From positions 1-38,250 of the forward strand of contig CALGPN010000027.1 in NCBI GenBank assembly GCA_937960435.1: a DNA stretch of 38,250 bases, written 5' to 3'. The stretch is from an uncultured Desulfosoma sp. (GTDB lineage Bacteria > Desulfobacterota > Syntrophobacteria > Syntrophobacterales > DSM-9756). The notes beneath the pieces are model-generated. The model was given only the letters and a program-made list of their open reading frames with translations. It was not told the DNA's origin and did no database searches. Below, piece by piece: positions 4,435 through 33,596 of this stretch; position 1 is the stretch's first letter, and each line of letters begins with the position of its first letter. Position numbers and translations under genes: made by a program.

Positions 4435-4463
4435 TTGACCCCATGCCTCGATGCTTTTACATT
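4435..4463 (+). promoter_or_regulatory. Probable sigma-70 promoter of the Tmc-like operon
   Basis: TTGACC at 4435-4440 and TACATT at 4458-4463 are separated by exactly 17 bp, matching the consensus in five and four of six positions. The predicted start of transcription near 4470 would give a leader of about 130 nt before the cytochrome b gene. Confidence 0.5.
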
Positions 4464-4603
4464 TCGGCTGTTCTTGAGCCGAGGACGCAGGTTCAAAGCG
4501 AACGTACCAGGAATTCCCGGGGGCTGTCCATGGCCCGAAACCGGATAGGCAGGCGAGAACGAGTGCGGAAAAACGCCGGGTGAAAGACAGTGGGAGATGG
4601 GGC

Positions 4604-5263
4604 ATGCAGGCGTGGTATGCTTTTTTGACAGGACCGGCTTTGTGGGCAACCTTCATCATTTTCTTGGGCGGCTTGGTCATCCGGCTAACCTTTCTCTACG
4701 GGCTGAGCCGCGAACGGGACCGCGTCTTTTATAACCACATGGACTGGACTTGGGGCCTCAAGTCCATCCTCCATTGGCTCATCCCTTGGGGCAGCGCTTC
4801 CATGCGTTTGCAACCCGTCTTCAGTTTCGTCTTCATTGTGTTTCATGTGGGGCTGTTGGCCGTGCCGCTTTTCCTTTCGGCCCACAACATCTTGTGGGAT
4901 CGGGCTTTTGGGGTGAGCCTGTGGTCCATGAGCGACGCCTGGGCGGACGCCTTGACCATGGTGGTCTTGGCGTGCGGCGTTTTTCTTTTGATTCGCCGTT
5001 TGGTGCGCCCGGAAGTGAGGATCCTCACCACAGCTTGGGACTACACGCTCTTGGGACTCACCCTCACCCCCTTCGTGACGGGTTTCCTGGCCTACCACCA
5101 GTGGGGCCCCTATGAGTGGCTCATGATCCTTCACGTCCTTTCGGCGGAGGTCCTCCTTGTCCTCATTCCCTTTACCAAACTGGGGCACATGGTGCTCTTT
5201 TTCTTCACTCGCGCCTTTATCGGTTTTGAAATGGGCGCACGTCGGGGCGCTCGAGCCTGGTAG
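4604..5263 (+). CDS. tmcC: TmcC-like membrane cytochrome b subunit (NarI/DsrM family)
   Basis: A 219-residue integral membrane protein with about five hydrophobic segments (roughly residues 9-31, 70-95, 115-135, 148-170 and 178-208). Histidines in the membrane parts (FHVGLL, ILHVLSAEV, KLGHMVLFF) fit haem b ligation as in the NarI/DsrM/TmcC family. It is inferred to pass electrons across the cytoplasmic membrane between a periplasmic cytochrome c3 and the cytoplasmic iron-sulfur subunit encoded next. I chose the ATG at 4604 because GGGAGATGG precedes it; a GTG at 4580 is in frame. The gap to the next gene is 51 bp. It could also be called a respiratory nitrate reductase gamma-like subunit; the neighbours favour Tmc. 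Confidence 0.8.
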   Translation: MQAWYAFLTGPALWATFIIFLGGLVIRLTFLYGLSRERDRVFYNHMDWTWGLKSILHWLIPWGSASMRLQPVFSFVFIVFHVGLLAVPLFLSAHNILWDRAFGVSLWSMSDAWADALTMVVLACGVFLLIRRLVRPEVRILTTAWDYTLLGLTLTPFVTGFLAYHQWGPYEWLMILHVLSAEVLLVLIPFTKLGHMVLFFFTRAFIGFEMGARRGARAW

Positions 5264-5314
5264 GCGAAGGGCGCAAACCGGCGAAGTCGAACTCTGAGGG
5301 ACGGAGCGGAGACA

Positions 5315-6640
5315 GTGCAGAAGAACGACGGCGACACGCGACCGGTGGATGTGAAAAAGATTCGCGAGCTATTGGATGCCAACAACGGCGCCCGCATCCG
5401 AACATGGCTCAGCCTGTGTTCCCGGTGCGGGCTGTGTGCGGAAAGCTGTTTTTTCTACCTTGCCCATAATCGCAACCCCAAGCTCAGCCCCGCCTACAAG
5501 TTCAAGGCGACTCTCGGTGAGCTTTACAAGCGCAAGGGACATGTGGACCGGGAATTTCTTCATCGTTGCGCGGACATCGTCTGGGGCGAGTGCACGACTT
5601 GCAAGCGCTGTTCCATGTATTGCCCGTTCGGCATCGATGTGGCCACCCTCATCGCCGCCACCCGGACCATTTTGTATTCCCAAGGCATCACACCCGAAGG
5701 ACTGGCCCGGACCGTGGTCAATTACCGGGAAACGGGCAACCAGATGGGCATGAGTTCCGAAGATTTTGTGGACACGTGTGAGTGGATGGCCGAAGAAAGC
5801 CAAGATGAAATCAAAGGGGTGACCATTCCCATCGATAAACACGGGGCCAAATACATGTACACGGTCAATCCCCGGGAGCCCATGTTTTACCCTCAGGATT
5901 TGGCCATGATGGCCAAGATCCTCACCGTGGCCGAAGAGGACTGGACCATGCCGTCCACGGGATGGGACTGCACGAATCTGCCCATGTTCGCCGGCGATCG
6001 GGCTCTGGCCGGCCAAGTGGTTCGAAACATGTATGAAAAGGCCCTGGAGCTGGGCGTTCAGGCCATCCTCATTACGGAGTGCGGTCACGCCTATCGCTCG
6101 GCGCTCTTTGAAGGGCCCTACTTGGCGGGCTATCCCGACGGGAAGCCCCCGGTGCCCGTCGTCCATTCCGTGCAATTGTTCTACGAATATATTCGGGACG
6201 GTCGCATCACCATCGACCCGGCCAAGAAGATCAAAGAACCCGTCACCTATCAAGACCCCTGCAATGTGTCGCGTAACGGCGGCCTGTGGGAAGAGGGGCG
6301 GAAGCTGGTGCGGTTTCTCGCGGAAGATTTTCGCGACATGAACCCGAACCGAGACCATAACCACTGCTGCGGCGGCGGGGGCGGCTACATCCCCATGGGG
6401 CCGGAATATAAAGCGCGGCGCATGGCTTCGGGGCGAGTCAAGGCGGAGCAGATTCGGGCGACGGGCGCCAAGATTGTCATTGCGCCGTGCCACAACTGTT
6501 TCGACCAGGTGAGCGATCTCAACAAGGAGTACCAACTGGGCGTCAAGGTCATGTCCTTTAAGGAAATTCTTTGCGAACTGATGGTTGTGCCCGAAAAGTT
6601 TCGGCCGGAGGTGTCTGAAGAGGACGAGGGGGAGAGCTAG
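5315..6640 (+). CDS. tmcB: TmcB-like HdrD-family iron-sulfur protein with CCG domain
   Basis: A 441-residue cytoplasmic electron-transfer protein of the heterodisulfide-reductase HdrD family. Two 4Fe-4S motifs lie near the N-terminus: Cys35, 38, 41, 45 and Cys93, 96, 99, 103, the last of each set being the handover to the other cluster. The C-terminal half carries a canonical CCG (cysteine-rich) domain: the DPCNVSRNGG cysteine, the HCCGGGGG pair and APCHNC. It starts with GTG, preceded by a purine-rich GGAG. In Tmc complexes this subunit works with a NarI-like cytochrome b and a type II cytochrome c3 to link periplasmic electron donors to a cytoplasmic acceptor. The acceptor is not known from the sequence. 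Heterodisulfide reductase proper is less likely because no HdrABC-type partners are present here. Confidence 0.85.
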   Translation: MQKNDGDTRPVDVKKIRELLDANNGARIRTWLSLCSRCGLCAESCFFYLAHNRNPKLSPAYKFKATLGELYKRKGHVDREFLHRCADIVWGECTTCKRCSMYCPFGIDVATLIAATRTILYSQGITPEGLARTVVNYRETGNQMGMSSEDFVDTCEWMAEESQDEIKGVTIPIDKHGAKYMYTVNPREPMFYPQDLAMMAKILTVAEEDWTMPSTGWDCTNLPMFAGDRALAGQVVRNMYEKALELGVQAILITECGHAYRSALFEGPYLAGYPDGKPPVPVVHSVQLFYEYIRDGRITIDPAKKIKEPVTYQDPCNVSRNGGLWEEGRKLVRFLAEDFRDMNPNRDHNHCCGGGGGYIPMGPEYKARRMASGRVKAEQIRATGAKIVIAPCHNCFDQVSDLNKEYQLGVKVMSFKEILCELMVVPEKFRPEVSEEDEGES

Positions 6641-6704
6641 ACGTCGTTGGGCATGCGAGGGCCTTTTCCCGCGGCGGTGAAAAGGGCAGGGCGAGGGGGG
6701 AAAC

Positions 6705-7235
6705 ATGTATCAAAAGATTGTCTTTTGTGCGGATCTGTACGCCAGTTCCGACTATGCCTTTGCGGCGGCTCTGGATCTCGCCGAACGCTCCGGGGCCGAA
6801 CTGATCATCCTGCACGTTTTGGAGTCGCGGCATCGGTATTCGGGACATGTGATCACCGAGGACGGCGAAACGTGGGCCGGGCCCGAAGTTTTCGAAAAAC
6901 TCAAAAAGAAGCTTCGGGAATACTATCTCATCCGCATCGAACGGGAAGATCCTCAGAACGTGCGGGTGGAGGTCCGGGCCGGGATCCCGTGGGTGGAAAT
7001 TTGTCGATTCGCCAGGAAGGAAAAGGCGGATCTGATCGTCATGGGCCCATATACGATCCACGACCCGAAAGCCCCTTTGGATTTGGAAAAGCCCCATCTC
7101 GGACAAAACGCCCAGGAGGTGTCCTTGAGGGCGCCATGCCAGGTTTCCATCGTCACGTCACCCAAACAGCGGCTGGCGTTGGAAAAGGCCGGGGAGTCCC
7201 CTCGGGAAAAGAGGCGAAAACGCTCAAAGGAATAA
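6705..7235 (+). CDS. Universal stress protein (UspA domain) inside the Tmc-like operon
   Basis: A single-domain UspA-family protein of 176 residues. The N-terminus MYQKIVFCADL and the following amphipathic helix (YAFAAALDLAERSGAELIILHV) are typical, as is ADLIVMGPY late in the fold. The ATP-binding class usually shows a G-2x-G-9x-G(S/T) motif; here the corresponding region (GQNAQEVSLRAPCQVSIV) is degenerate, so nucleotide binding is doubtful. The C-terminal 20 residues are strongly basic. It lies 64 bp after tmcB and 28 bp before the cytochrome gene, with an AGGGG-rich ribosome site, so it is almost surely co-transcribed. A regulatory or assembly role for the complex is inference only. Confidence 0.85.
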   Translation: MYQKIVFCADLYASSDYAFAAALDLAERSGAELIILHVLESRHRYSGHVITEDGETWAGPEVFEKLKKKLREYYLIRIEREDPQNVRVEVRAGIPWVEICRFARKEKADLIVMGPYTIHDPKAPLDLEKPHLGQNAQEVSLRAPCQVSIVTSPKQRLALEKAGESPREKRRKRSKE

Positions 7236-7263
7236 GGCGACCTATTCAGCGGCAGGAGGCCTC

Positions 7264-7638
7264 ATGAAACGGACACTGTTCGGTGCCATCGGTTGCGCCA
7301 TTTTGGCTGCGGTGGTTTCCTTGGCCTGGTCTCAGGAAGAAGTGATGCGGCTTCAAGGAGACGGGACCAAAGCCTCGCAACGTCCCGCGGTTGTTTTCCC
7401 TCATGAGAAACATGCGGAACTCATGGATTGCTCCCGATGCCACCATGACTACGACGCCTACGGGGTGAACAAGGGCGACGAAGGCCGCCGATGCGCCGAA
7501 TGCCACGGGAGCGGAAAGGCCAATCCCGTCCCGCTCCAGCGGGCTTACCATGAGCAATGCCTGTCGTGCCACGAACGGGTGAACGCCCGCCAGAACCGAA
7601 ATCTTCCCGTCATGTGCGGCCAGTGCCACGTGCGCTAG
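7264..7638 (+). CDS. tmcA: Tetraheme cytochrome c3 (TmcA-like), periplasmic
   Basis: A small class III cytochrome c of 124 residues. The first 24 residues form a Sec signal peptide ending near AWS-Q, so the protein acts in the periplasm. Four haem-binding motifs are visible, all CXXCH: CSRCH, CAECH, CLSCH and CGQCH. Additional histidines suited as sixth ligands lie in FPHEKHAEL and after the first motif (CHHDY). In Desulfovibrio the type II cytochrome c3 is the periplasmic partner of TmcBCD and takes electrons from hydrogenase and type I c3. AGGAGG lies directly before the start. In the described Desulfovibrio operon tmcA comes first; here it is last. Confidence 0.88.
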   Translation: MKRTLFGAIGCAILAAVVSLAWSQEEVMRLQGDGTKASQRPAVVFPHEKHAELMDCSRCHHDYDAYGVNKGDEGRRCAECHGSGKANPVPLQRAYHEQCLSCHERVNARQNRNLPVMCGQCHVR

Positions 7639-7715
7639 GCGTGGGCTTTGCGTCGGTTTATCGTCCGGGAGCGCCGATCGGCCCCATCGAGTCGAACCGG
7701 CGGATGCGGCGACGT

Positions 7716-7766
7716 TCCCGGGTAAGGGCCACGTCATTCATCCACTCGTGTTCCCCGGGAGTTTTT
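7716..7766 (+). terminator. Possible intrinsic terminator after the Tmc-like operon
   Basis: TCCCGGG (7716-7722) can pair with CCCGGGA (7754-7760), with an inner CACG/CGTG pairing, and GTTTTT follows at once. The loop is long (31 nt) and each arm is itself nearly palindromic, so the fold is not certain. Its position, about 80 bp after the cytochrome stop and before the ndk promoter, fits. Confidence 0.4.
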
Positions 7767-24987: not shown

Positions 24988-25662
24988 TTATGAAGGTGCC
25001 CCGTTGTCGGTTGTCGACGTCGATGACGGGGCCTGCCGTGAAACCCATGGGAGGATCTTCCCCCAGAGCTCTCCCACGCCTTCTCGACTGACGGCGGAAA
25101 ACACAACGAACTCCTCGGATCTGATGCCGAGGGAGCGCGCTGCCGCGTGCAGATGGGAAGAACGTTTTCCTCGGGGGATCTTGTCGGCTTTGGTGAGCAC
25201 GGGAACCGTTCGGATCCCGTTTGCTTGGAGCCAGTTCCAGAGCTGCACGTCATCGGCCGTCGGAGGGTGTCGAAGATCCATGATGTGGACCAACCCCGCC
25301 AATTCTTTTCGACTCGAGAGGTATTTTTCCACCATGGGGCCCCATTGTTCCCGAACCTTTTGGGGGACCTTGGCGTAGCCGTAACCCGGAAGATCGACAA
25401 AAAGAAACGCGTCGTTGATCCGGAAAAAATTCAATGTCTGGGTGCGGCCCGGAGTGGCGCTGGTGCGCACCAGCTTCTTTCGGCCCAGGATGGCGTTGAT
25501 GAGGGAGGATTTCCCCACGTTGGATCGCCCCGCAAAGGCGACTTCCGGGAGCCCTTCTTTCGGGTACCCCTGGGGGGCGACGGCCGAGGTGACGAACACC
25601 GCCGATTGGATCACCAGGGGAGATTCAGATGAGGCAAGAGGATCTCCGGCGACGGGGTTCAT
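24988..25662 (-). CDS. engB: EngB/YihA ribosome-biogenesis GTPase
   Basis: A 224-residue GTPase of the TrmE-Era-EngA-EngB group, needed for assembly of the large ribosomal subunit. The nucleotide motifs are G1 GRSNVGKS (45-52), the switch TPGRTQTLNFF, G3 DLPGYGYAKVP (from 90) and G4 TKAD (157-160), with FSAVSREGVGEL as G5. The C-terminus is a Ser/Thr-rich tail of about 15 residues beyond the usual end. GAGG stands 6 nt before the ATG. It follows the aminotransferase gene by 136 bp, in which I find no clear promoter. Confidence 0.95.
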   Translation of the reverse strand: MNPVAGDPLASSESPLVIQSAVFVTSAVAPQGYPKEGLPEVAFAGRSNVGKSSLINAILGRKKLVRTSATPGRTQTLNFFRINDAFLFVDLPGYGYAKVPQKVREQWGPMVEKYLSSRKELAGLVHIMDLRHPPTADDVQLWNWLQANGIRTVPVLTKADKIPRGKRSSHLHAAARSLGIRSEEFVVFSAVSREGVGELWGKILPWVSRQAPSSTSTTDNGAPS

Positions 25663-30263: not shown

Positions 30264-31580
30264 TCAGGCCTTCCTCACCTCGTAACGGTCGGTGGTTCGA
30301 TCCTGCAGGAACACCCGATCGTAAGATCGCAGATTGACCGCATCGAACCATTCGTAACCCAGGGCCACACAATCCGGACAGGCTTTTCGGGGGATGTGGA
30401 CGGCGTAGATATGGTAGCCCCGATCGGTCAAGGAATCGATGGACAAGACGCCACTGCACACGGGGCACACGCGCAGGCGTTCTTTTTGGTTTTCGAGGAT
30501 GTTGTCCGTATCGTAGTAGATCGTGCGTTCCCGCTGGGCGAATTCTTTGGTCGCCCGATTCTTGGCGATGAACTCCGGACATCGGCGAAGATAGCCCATG
30601 ATCTCTTCGGCCAAGCGGTCGATGTAGGCGTTGGTGTCCGGCGACTGGCGAATTCGGTCGGGGTCGTAGTCCGGTTCCCTGACCTTGCTGTAATCCACAC
30701 CGGCCAGGGCCAGGATGATGCCGACGTTGACGTAGGGCAGAGCTCCTTCGATGGAATAACCCCCTTCCAGGACGGCGATGTGCGGCTGCAGCATGCTCGT
30801 CAAGGTGGCGTAGCCCTGGGCGGAAAAGTTCATGTTGGTGATGGGGTCTGTGTAATGGTTGTCTTGCCCCGCCGAATTGATGATGAGTTCGGGCCGAAAT
30901 TCTTCCAAAGCCGGCAGGACGATCTTTTCCATGGCCCGAAGGAAACCTTCTTCGGACGTTCTCGGCGGCAAGGGAATGTTGATGGTCGCCCCCATGGCCG
31001 TGGGCCCGCCCAATTCGTGATGGAACCCCGAGCCTGGATACAGCGTGCGCCCGTCTTGATGGATGGAGATGAACAGAGTGTCCGGGTCGTGCCAGTAGAT
31101 GTCCTGGGTGCCGTCTCCGTGGTGACAATCCGTGTCCACAATGGCAATGCGATCGACGCCGTAGGCGGCCCGCAAGTGCTCGATCATCATCGCTTCGATA
31201 TTGATATTGCAAAAACCGCGGGCGCCGTGCACCACGCGCATGGCATGGTGGCCGGGAGGCCTCACCAACGCAAAGCCGCGCTCCACCTTCCGGGCCATGA
31301 CGGCCCGGGCAATGGTCATGGCCCCACCGGCGCTGATGAGGTGACTTTCGGTCAGAACGCTCCGTTCATCGGGCGCGCAGAAGTGCACGCGGCGCACATC
31401 TTCGAGAGTCGCCAGGTCGGGCTTGAATTCCACAATGCCGTCGATGTCGAGAAGGCCCTCTTCGAAAATCTGGTCCTGGGTGTAAAGGAGTCTTTCTTCC
31501 CGTTCCGGGTGCGTGGGACTGATGGCCCAGTCGAAGGCGGGAAAGAAAACGAGGCCGGTTCTGGATGCGGCACGGAGCAT
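30264..31580 (-). CDS. Histone-deacetylase-family hydrolase with C-terminal zinc ribbon
   Basis: A 438-residue zinc amidohydrolase of the HDAC/acetoin-utilisation family. The catalytic set is complete: RPPGHHA (His111, His112), DTDCHHGDG (zinc ligands Asp151 and His153), SAGQD (Asp240) and the transition-state tyrosine in LEGGYS (Tyr275). After about residue 300 comes an extension with two cysteine pairs, CPVC (372, 375) and CPDC (401, 404), which looks like a zinc ribbon. Bacterial members act on acetylated polyamines, other small amides or protein lysines; the substrate here is unknown. AAGGAG precedes the start. It lies between the hydantoinase-like gene (19 bp) and rlmN (6 bp). Confidence 0.88.
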   Translation of the reverse strand: MLRAASRTGLVFFPAFDWAISPTHPEREERLLYTQDQIFEEGLLDIDGIVEFKPDLATLEDVRRVHFCAPDERSVLTESHLISAGGAMTIARAVMARKVERGFALVRPPGHHAMRVVHGARGFCNINIEAMMIEHLRAAYGVDRIAIVDTDCHHGDGTQDIYWHDPDTLFISIHQDGRTLYPGSGFHHELGGPTAMGATINIPLPPRTSEEGFLRAMEKIVLPALEEFRPELIINSAGQDNHYTDPITNMNFSAQGYATLTSMLQPHIAVLEGGYSIEGALPYVNVGIILALAGVDYSKVREPDYDPDRIRQSPDTNAYIDRLAEEIMGYLRRCPEFIAKNRATKEFAQRERTIYYDTDNILENQKERLRVCPVCSGVLSIDSLTDRGYHIYAVHIPRKACPDCVALGYEWFDAVNLRSYDRVFLQDRTTDRYEVRKA

Positions 31581-31599: not shown

Positions 31600-33321
31600 T
31601 TATGAAGAGCCTGCGGTGGAACAGGGCGCGGTGGTGTCCGTGTCTTGGATCCTCTCGACGACGGAGCGATAGTCGGCGATGAGCCCCGGTTTGACCTGGA
31701 CCTTGACGCGATAGTACTTACCCGTGGTGTAAAAACCCCGAACCATGTTGAATTGCAGTTTCTCCAAAACTTCCGTCTCCATGTCGTCCGGCTTGGCCCC
31801 TTCCCGAACGGCTTTGTGGGTGAGCAGTTCCAGGGCCAGGGAGACGGCCTTGTCCAAGGTGAAATCCCGCTTGACCGGTTGGTGGAAGGCCTCCTCAGGG
31901 GCCGTGGCGATACCCCTTTCGGTGTCCACGAAGAGAGTGAGCTCGCAGGTTGTGCGCGCCAGCGCGGCTCCCACGGCGTTGGCCACTTCCCATTGGGGGA
32001 CGATGCGGGTCGCATAGGGAGAAATTTCCTGAAGCCGCCGGGCGAAGTAAGGGGCGGGACCGCCCAGGATCAAAAGTTCTTTGGGCTGCACCTGATAGCC
32101 TTCCAAAAGTTCGTGCACAGTATAAACGGGTTTGGCGTTAATGGCCCGCACCATCTCCTCCGCGGCATTGAGAATGCCGCGGCATGCGGCGTCGAAGACC
32201 TGTTGGGCGGCCTCGCGCGTCGAGACACCCAGGGCTCGGGCCACCTGAGCCATGCCCTGTTCGGCGGCGTCGCGGTCGCCCTTGAGATCTCCCCCCAAGA
32301 CGATAATGGCGTCGGTCGGGGTAGGGCACGATCCCCCGAACGCCATGGCCGGCCCTTCCCGGTCGGGCCCCACGTGGAGCCGTCCGTCGATGACCCGCAC
32401 GGCGCTGTCTCCGCCCAGGGCGAGGGATGTGGTATTGAGGGCGCGGATGAGCGTGCGGAAACGGCCGACTTCCGCTCCTTGGGCCGCCAACAAAGGGACG
32501 GTCCCAACGAGCACGGCCATGTCCGTGGTGGTGCCGCCGATGTCCAGGACAATGGTATCGACGCTCTCGGAGGCAAATGGCAACGATCCCATGACACTAG
32601 CCGCGGGACCCGAAAGGATGGTTTGACCCGGAAGGTCCAAAGAGGCGTCGAAACTCATAGTGCCGCCGTCGGCTTTGAGGATGTGGATGGGGATGGGCAG
32701 GCCGTTCTTTTTGAGCGAACGGCGCACGGCATCGAAGAATTTCTTGTGAAGAGGATAGACTGCGGCGTTGAGGTAGGCGGTGGCGATGCGGCGAGGAAAA
32801 TTCAAATTCCCCGAAAGACGATGCCCCAAAACCACGTATTCGAAATGGTCGCCCAGGATCTCTTGAATCTGGGTCTCGTGCTTGGGGTTGCGCACGGAAA
32901 ACTTTCCCACCACGCCCACGTGGCGCACTCCCTCTTTGCGGAGCCTGGAGGCGACGGCTTCGATTTCCATGGGGTCCAGGGGCTGGATTTCCCGCCCTCG
33001 ATGATCGATGGACCCGGAAACCGTGTAATAGTGGTCGTTGGTGCGGAAAAACTCGGGATCCAACCCGGGACCGCTGGAGACGATCATGCCGACGGGCGGC
33101 AATTTCTCCTCGGCAATGGCGTTTGTGGTCAAGGTGGTGCTGAGGACAATGCGTTCCACATCATGCGGCCGGACGCCCAAGGTGACCGCTTCGAGCCCCT
33201 TCCACACACAGATGAGGAGATCCTCATGGGTCGTAGGGATTTTCGCCTGACATTCGATGCCGTGGTCTCCCAGCAAAACCACATCGGTGTGCGTGCCGCC
33301 CACATCCAGTCCTATGATCAT
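31600..33321 (-). CDS. Hydantoinase/oxoprolinase family protein (HyuA-like)
   Basis: A 573-residue protein of the ASKHA-type hydantoinase A/oxoprolinase family, whose members use ATP to open cyclic amides such as hydantoins or 5-oxoproline, or to carboxylate ketones. The N-terminal phosphate loop GLDVGGTHTDVVLLG and the second one VLDIGGTTTDMAVL are clear, and FGGSCPTPTDAIIVLGG lies further on. It is shorter than bacterial N-methylhydantoinase A (near 650-700) and no HyuB-like partner gene is near, so it belongs to an orphan subgroup of unknown substrate. The start at 33321 has GAGGGTGG upstream; the frame extends back a further 231 nt across its own promoter. It heads the minus-strand run. 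Confidence 0.83.
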   Translation of the reverse strand: MIIGLDVGGTHTDVVLLGDHGIECQAKIPTTHEDLLICVWKGLEAVTLGVRPHDVERIVLSTTLTTNAIAEEKLPPVGMIVSSGPGLDPEFFRTNDHYYTVSGSIDHRGREIQPLDPMEIEAVASRLRKEGVRHVGVVGKFSVRNPKHETQIQEILGDHFEYVVLGHRLSGNLNFPRRIATAYLNAAVYPLHKKFFDAVRRSLKKNGLPIPIHILKADGGTMSFDASLDLPGQTILSGPAASVMGSLPFASESVDTIVLDIGGTTTDMAVLVGTVPLLAAQGAEVGRFRTLIRALNTTSLALGGDSAVRVIDGRLHVGPDREGPAMAFGGSCPTPTDAIIVLGGDLKGDRDAAEQGMAQVARALGVSTREAAQQVFDAACRGILNAAEEMVRAINAKPVYTVHELLEGYQVQPKELLILGGPAPYFARRLQEISPYATRIVPQWEVANAVGAALARTTCELTLFVDTERGIATAPEEAFHQPVKRDFTLDKAVSLALELLTHKAVREGAKPDDMETEVLEKLQFNMVRGFYTTGKYYRVKVQVKPGLIADYRSVVERIQDTDTTAPCSTAGSS

Positions 33322-33442
33322 GACCACCCTCGAAGTTTCTTTGGATTTGCCGGTGTCGCATGAAACCGCCCTTGGAAATCGTCCGGGTGCGCGAAAAAGG
33401 CTTATGCTGCTTCTCGGGGAAAAGGTGACGCAATCCTTGAAG

Positions 33443-33471
33443 ATGCTAGCGAAAAGGCCGCCGAGTGTCAA
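33443..33471 (-). promoter_or_regulatory. Probable sigma-70 promoter of the hydantoinase-deacetylase-rlmN run
   Basis: On the minus strand a perfect TTGACA (33471-33466) and TAGCAT (33448-33443) are exactly 17 bp apart. Transcription would start near 33436, about 115 nt before the ATG at 33321. It is divergent from the promoter at 33511-33539. Confidence 0.6.
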
Positions 33472-33510
33472 TGAACCGTTTCCGCTTTCGGAACACAAGA
33501 CATTCGTTTC

Positions 33511-33539
33511 TTTACAACAAATGCAAATCGGGCTATGGT
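33511..33539 (+). promoter_or_regulatory. Probable sigma-70 promoter of the rhomboid-thiolase run
   Basis: TTTACA (33511-33516) and TATGGT (33534-33539) are exactly 17 bp apart, with five and four matches to consensus. Transcription would start near 33546, about 50 nt before the rhomboid start codon. The five genes that follow have gaps of 16 bp or less. Confidence 0.55.
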
Positions 33540-33596
33540 CCACTGTTCCCATGACCGGGCAAGTCCGTGCCGAGGCCTTCTCAGGGTGGCGAGCCG

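Follow-up and report, generated by a model that had tools for sequence, protein, structure and literature searches.

The stretch analyzed here (hereafter, the window) comprises 38,250 nucleotides of contig CALGPN010000027.1 (assembly GCA_937960435.1) from an uncultured Desulfosoma sp. At positions 4435-7766, it carries a predicted operon for a Tmc-like electron-transfer complex in which a gene for a universal stress protein (Usp) lies between the core genes. The features of this locus are as follows.

4435..4463, plus strand: weak sigma-70-like promoter match upstream of the operon (9/12 matches)
4580..5263, plus strand: TmcC/HmcE-like membrane cytochrome b subunit (NCBIfam TmcC, 256.9 bits, cut-off 240)
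5315..6640, plus strand: HdrD-like CCG/4Fe-4S subunit, neither canonical TmcB nor HmcF according to the profile scores and the HdrD tree
6705..7235, plus strand: Usp of the in-operon type that has lost the ATP motif (PF00582, 77.6 bits, cut-off 24)
7264..7638, plus strand: TmcA-like tetraheme cytochrome c3 (PF02085, 59.5 bits; four CXXCH motifs)

All four genes are on the plus strand, with gaps of 51 bp between the cytochrome b and HdrD-like genes and of 64 and 28 bp on the two sides of the Usp gene, the latter two as given in the first-pass annotation of this DNA. None of these gaps contains a terminator-like site (the scan overall yielded 8 sites vs 8.5 in shuffled sequences), and in three relatives from family f2 the gap between the HdrD-like and Usp genes shrinks to 3 bp; a single transcript for these two genes fits the sequence. 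The promoter match, one found vs 1.5 expected in shuffles, is no evidence by itself. The cytochrome b might actually start at the ATG near 4604 because the TmcC model aligns only from residue 11. The cytochrome c3 is probably periplasmic, given the signal peptide discernible by eye; no signal peptide is apparent by eye in the Usp, a protein of 176 aa.

The complex belongs to neither of the canonical types. The HdrD-like protein scores under the cut-offs of both HmcF (521 bits, cut-off 750) and TmcB (435.6 bits, cut-off 735) and is placed outside both respective clades in the HdrD tree; the HmcE score of the window, like that of HmcF, is under the cut-off (231 vs 275), and the cytochrome c3 falls below the TmcA model cut-off (94.2 bits vs 114). 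With the TmcB, TmcA, HmcF and HmcE scores all insufficient, assignment to canonical Tmc or Hmc was rejected. No multiheme HmcA is encoded beside the window genes, where the tetraheme cytochrome is the only one. The nearest named records, in a set that may omit the window's own genome, come from Desulfacinum (86% identity). Genome G000 encodes one HdrD of the window type (1050 bits), and its three other matches do not exceed 219 bits. Judging from the protein families, electrons from the periplasmic cytochrome c3 would cross the membrane via the cytochrome b, reach the HdrD-like CCG subunit in the cytoplasm and probably move on to DsrC; transfer towards DsrC has been proposed for Tmc of D. alaskensis, where the complex is important for hydrogen use (PMC4215793).

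The first-pass annotation took tmcA-B-C-D for the direction of transcription and therefore described the gene order in the window as changed. In D. vulgaris, the tags DVU_0263 to DVU_0266 correspond to A through D by numbering alone, strand aside (PMC10920352). In locus L227, in which all four NCBIfam Tmc models pass, the genes run D-C-B-A on the coding strand, and the arrangement is the same in L219, where the D and B models pass (the C and A models were outside that scan). The C-B-Usp-A order of the window is thus D-C-B-A minus D plus Usp; it retains the C-B-A succession of Tmc on the coding strand, and the claim of a changed order was rejected. Furthermore, C-B-A without D is the usual arrangement in the window's group. 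When both sides and both strands around 49 distinct TmcB-type HdrD rows were inspected, a TmcD-like open reading frame (ORF) was located upstream on the same strand in 32, up to 1.5 kb downstream in the same orientation in four, and on the opposite strand in none; the four downstream cases probably represent tandem pairs of HdrD genes, with the ORF preceding the second gene of the pair. Around 57 distinct window-type rows, no TmcD-like ORF was detected.

No TmcD passes the cut-off in any of the 39 genomes of the order, whether they have the Usp or not; G000 shows no match at all, and four genomes show short matches of no more than 27 bits, below the threshold. The lack of a TmcD-like gene, noted at first pass, is thus confirmed, but the accompanying suggestion that the Usp takes the place of TmcD is not: relatives without an operon Usp lack TmcD as well, and the replacement was rejected on these grounds. 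Clusters named without TmcD have been described, namely, tmcA2B2C2 (Tmc2) of Desulfococcus multivorans and TmcBCA of Desulfobacterium autotrophicum (PMC5109826, PMC2702500). Likened to the window by description, these contain the same three core genes; unlike the window, they come with no mention of an in-operon Usp in the available portions of these two papers. Tmc operons of some seep bacteria lack TmcA instead (PMC10553843), which is not the case in the window.

The distribution of the in-operon Usp is patchy. The window-type HdrD is present in 22 of the 39 genomes of the order. The Usp gene directly follows it in all five operon-bearing genomes of family f1 and all three of f2; in the 14 operon genomes of f3, the c3 gene comes after the HdrD gene with no Usp between them. 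Outside the order, in-operon Usps were found in L035 (and G155), L037, L084 and L056. Usp proximity was counted over distinct rows, with duplicates removed, that extend at least 900 bp downstream, requiring a same-strand Usp no more than 900 bp away. By this measure, a Usp is found in 11 of 53 window-type rows, 13 of 41 HmcF-type rows (all double Usps, within 65 bp in 10 and behind an intervening gene in three) and 6 of 41 rows nearest to the f44 reference, and in none of the 48 TmcB-type or 12 f61-type rows; the f61 genomes have a Usp farther downstream of HdrD. On a FastTree phylogeny of 181 of the 213 HdrD rows, from which most Bacillota and ten long-branch or DsrK-like rows were omitted and in which some duplicates remain, the presence of a Usp (35/181 rows, 1.5-kb window) requires 8 changes, at least 5 of them forced.

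The Usp is not an obligatory subunit because the in-operon form is found in only 11 of the 53 distinct related loci; in the neighbourhood comparison that the first-pass annotation proposed, most relatives likewise possess the core genes but no Usp among them (it is present in 8 of the 22 operon-bearing genomes of the order). These counts bear on the possibility that the Usp is a true structural subunit substituting for TmcD. The location of its gene between the B and A genes, the lack of TmcD and the evolutionary constraint, about like that on the HdrD-like gene, would all be compatible with such a role: relative to Desulfacinum L033, dN and dS are 0.12 and 1.68 for the Usp and 0.10 and 1.57 for the HdrD-like gene, so that purifying selection on the Usp is likely (for the four remaining Usp pairs that include the window, dS is undefined). 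However, no TmcD passes the cut-off anywhere in the order, even where the operon has no Usp, and a protein of about 425 aa would have to be replaced by one of 176 aa with a Usp fold, which, together with the sparse distribution, makes a structural replacement highly improbable. A fused form of the Usp and the HdrD-like protein was also considered and rejected: none of the genes picked in the loci fitted more than one of the four profiles.

The in-operon Usps are a distinct type. In a quick tree of 120 domains, which excludes the partial sequences L183_19581 and L123_3841 as well as domains shorter than 100 aa, the ten in-operon Usps group as a single clade (SH-aLRT 99). Along with Usps from histidine kinase gene cassettes (see below), double Usps and those of f44 and f61, they are all separated by one branch (97) from 42 background domains. 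The nearness of the cassette Usps is expected because resemblance to the in-operon Usps was the criterion that retrieved them; the f44/f61 Usps, which sit on a long branch, and most doubles entered the tree via their HdrD neighbourhood instead. The ATP-binding motif, tested as G-2x-G-9x-G(S/T), is absent from all ten in-operon Usps, in agreement with the degeneracy seen at first pass; all 21 cassette Usps examined have it, as do 33 of the 42 background domains. The Usps of f2 carry an N-terminal, cysteine-rich, zinc-ribbon-like stretch with sub-threshold Pfam matches in two of the three. An arrangement between the two states is found in L068, where the gene for a cassette-type Usp comes after the c3 gene in the same orientation.

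The predicted structure of the window Usp is a Usp fold (mean pLDDT 75.8), with loops 41-60 and 115-133 at low confidence, and its top Foldseek matches are Usps. The best of these is TeaD of Halomonas elongata (3hgm, E 4.6e-11), titled as a TRAP-transporter Usp. TeaD is thus a Usp of a membrane complex, albeit a transporter rather than a redox complex; we take it to be co-encoded with, and to regulate, the TeaABC transporter. TeaD binds ATP; the window Usp has no ATP motif.

The cassettes that carry related Usps consist of a histidine kinase, a receiver-ATPase, the Usp and a receiver, in this order, and are complete in 15 of 27 loci, with the gene picker having missed the Usp or another ORF in some of them. 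Among the 23 kinases longer than 500 aa, 18 contain one CXXCH motif, which in 17 lies between two membrane segments according to a hydropathy script; the motif is lacking in the kinases of L274, L352, L255, L256 and L257. The CXXCH motif alone suggests that these kinases may bind heme. The sensor model PF21563 matches 4 of 9 scanned kinases, always under the cut-off. The signalling proteins of L274 and L227, three from each locus, show no DNA-binding Pfam domain apart from one sub-threshold VpsR-domain match in L274. In a search that scored the best candidates, at most 49 per genome, the cassette response regulator was detected in 8 of the 14 f3 operon genomes (in G013, over 168 of 388 residues), in none of the 12 f3 genomes without the operon and in none of the 8 f1/f2 genomes with an in-operon Usp. 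Just ahead of the double Usp in L164 (5138-5671) and L227 (9336-9896), there is a protein of about 180 aa without a Pfam match.

Across the sampled genomes of the phylum, this Usp type and the complex go together. In one sample of 395 genomes, searched for both proteins with the best 9 Usp and best 4 HdrD candidates considered per genome, an in-operon or cassette Usp (E up to 1e-36) was found in 25 genomes, all of which are among the 28 with a window-type HdrD (E up to 1e-150), vs none of the 367 others (Fisher p 1e-36). The three HdrD-bearing genomes without this Usp type are G192, G258 and G059. With the seven in-operon genomes removed, the ratio is 18/21 vs 0/367 (p 3e-28). Within the order, where all candidates were scored, the Usp is present in 15 of 22 operon-bearing genomes vs 0 of 17 without the operon (p 7e-6), and within f3 alone, in 7 of 14 vs 0 of 12 (p 0.006). 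Each of the genera g3, g6, g9 and g13 includes genomes with both and genomes with neither.

These observations bear on the view that the Usp is a general stress protein, co-expressed for convenience, the position of which is incidental. Many Usps act broadly, and genomes encode many of them (16 Usp domain matches in G000). Nevertheless, the in-operon clade persists in several families and stands separate from the 42 background domains sampled, the Usp type tracks the complex even when the two are unlinked, and proximity to HdrD takes the repeated changes counted above on the HdrD tree. An incidental location therefore appears unlikely.

Several points weigh against a dedicated link between the Usp and the complex. 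No such Usp (E 1e-27) was found in 7 of the 22 operon genomes of the order (G021, G023, G025, G029, G035, G036 and G038), five of which (G021, G023, G025, G036 and G038) are operon-only genomes of g13, so the complex can occur without the Usp. The thresholds of 1e-36 and 1e-150 were chosen after the lists had been viewed, although they agree with the clades of the Usp and HdrD trees. The p values ignore kinship, nor can the genomes be counted as independent. A single cassette Usp, added to the in-operon ones, went into the Usp profile, and the Usp tree was made quickly and contains several long branches. Absence among the best-scoring candidates, in both the phylum searches and the regulator search, is no proof of absence.

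All things considered, the Usp is on balance probably a dedicated regulatory partner of a TmcD-less, Tmc-like complex rather than a substitute for TmcD. The first-pass annotation had offered "a structural or regulatory subunit"; the regulatory part is supported indirectly, by the close relatives in two-component cassettes and by the co-occurrence with the complex, and the part that assigned to the Usp the place of TmcD falls. The in-operon Usp shares ancestry with the cassette Usps of genomes that possess the same complex. In both the Desulfacinum-like family and a second family of the order, its gene lies within the operon, the search detected no cassette response regulator and the ATP motif has been lost; most likely, therefore, it binds the CCG subunit or the membrane complex as a modulator that works independently of nucleotides. 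The comparisons show the genes, the in-operon clade, the co-occurrence, the loss of the motif and, as far as the search reached, the missing cassette regulator; from them, we infer regulation of the complex by the Usp, direct contact between the two and the direction of evolutionary change.

Alternatively, the Usp could belong to signalling that sets the expression of the operon, without acting on the complex itself. The kinases and receivers next to the Usp relatives are in line with such a role, and so is the D. vulgaris locus DVU0539-0545, which encodes a kinase, a DNA-binding regulator and two Usps (PMC10102598). The lack of DNA-binding Pfam domains in the L274 and L227 signalling proteins (the sub-threshold VpsR-domain match aside) and the failure to find the cassette regulator in the window's family speak against it, and we regard this role as quite unlikely. 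Extending the preferred reading, that of a dedicated regulatory partner, one can imagine, as a possible if doubtful scenario, that dedicated signalling controls the transmembrane redox complexes of CCG type in sulfate-reducing bacteria: a kinase sensing through periplasmic heme c would read the periplasmic redox state, receivers without DNA-binding domains would relay it and the Usp would act on the complex. In the window lineage, the upstream signalling would be gone and the nucleotide-blind Usp would have become a permanent regulatory subunit.

To our knowledge, little is established about what controls the passage of electrons in complexes of the Tmc/Hmc type. A group of Usps that accompanies one complex type in a phylum-wide sample, whether in the operon or in cassettes with CXXCH-sensor kinases, would provide a testable link between the periplasmic redox state and sulfate respiration and could represent a new Usp role, that of fixed regulators of a respiratory complex. 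In a literature search that was light on subscription papers, no description of an in-operon Usp or of its co-occurrence with the complex was found. Already in print is a Usp near the Tmc1/Hmc cluster of D. multivorans, together with response regulators and kinases (PMC5109826). The available part of Rajeev 2011 (PMC3333781) does not treat the Tmc complex, and the locus tags DVU0258-0261 turned up in none of the papers searched. In D. alaskensis, mutants in the Usps Dde_3712/3713 have defects alongside those in nearby kinase and receiver genes (PMC5193443); since no link of that locus to a CCG complex could be shown, these data were not used here.

Among the known systems, TmcABCD of Desulfovibrio (NF045722-NF045725) shares with the window the cytochrome b, the CCG/HdrD subunit, the tetraheme cytochrome c3 and, in L227, the C-B-A transcription, but includes TmcD. 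The HdrD of L227 scores as TmcB (839 bits) whereas that of the window reaches 436, and TmcA in L227 is followed by a kinase, a receiver-ATPase, a double Usp and a receiver, so that its Usp has two domains and lies beyond the core genes, in contrast to the single Usp within them in the window. The Hmc complex (HmcA-F) differs by the multiheme HmcA and further subunits, and the Usps near HmcF have two domains, unlike the single-domain Usp of the window.

Various other loci combine HdrD-like genes with Usps in different arrangements. In L179, L183, L226, L232, L235, L237 and L238, a cytochrome b and an HdrD (477 aa) are accompanied by a divergent Usp; in L238, these are followed by a HEAT-repeat protein, a receiver and a PAS/ATPase kinase, divergent to a second cytochrome b/HdrD pair taken for putative DsrMK. 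In f15, two opposite-strand Usps flank the HdrD-like gene (L261, around 3846; L262, around 3534), and in L262, HdrC- and HdrB-like genes, identified by eye, adjoin one of the two. In f61 (L255-L260), a few kb at most separate the HdrD-like gene from a downstream ORF of about 740-800 aa and a divergent Usp; in L255, this ORF is a kinase by Pfam and a receiver gene lies between. The HdrD-like gene is interrupted by a stop codon in its reading frame (given as TGA wherever the search specified it) in L024, L026, L028, L029, L067, L068, L087, L110, L125-L127 and L130, possibly reflecting selenocysteine. Elsewhere in the window, a YsxC/EngB-like GTPase (24988-25662), a histone-deacetylase-like protein (30264-31580) and a large ORF with a DVGGTHTD motif (31600-33552) were recognized by eye.

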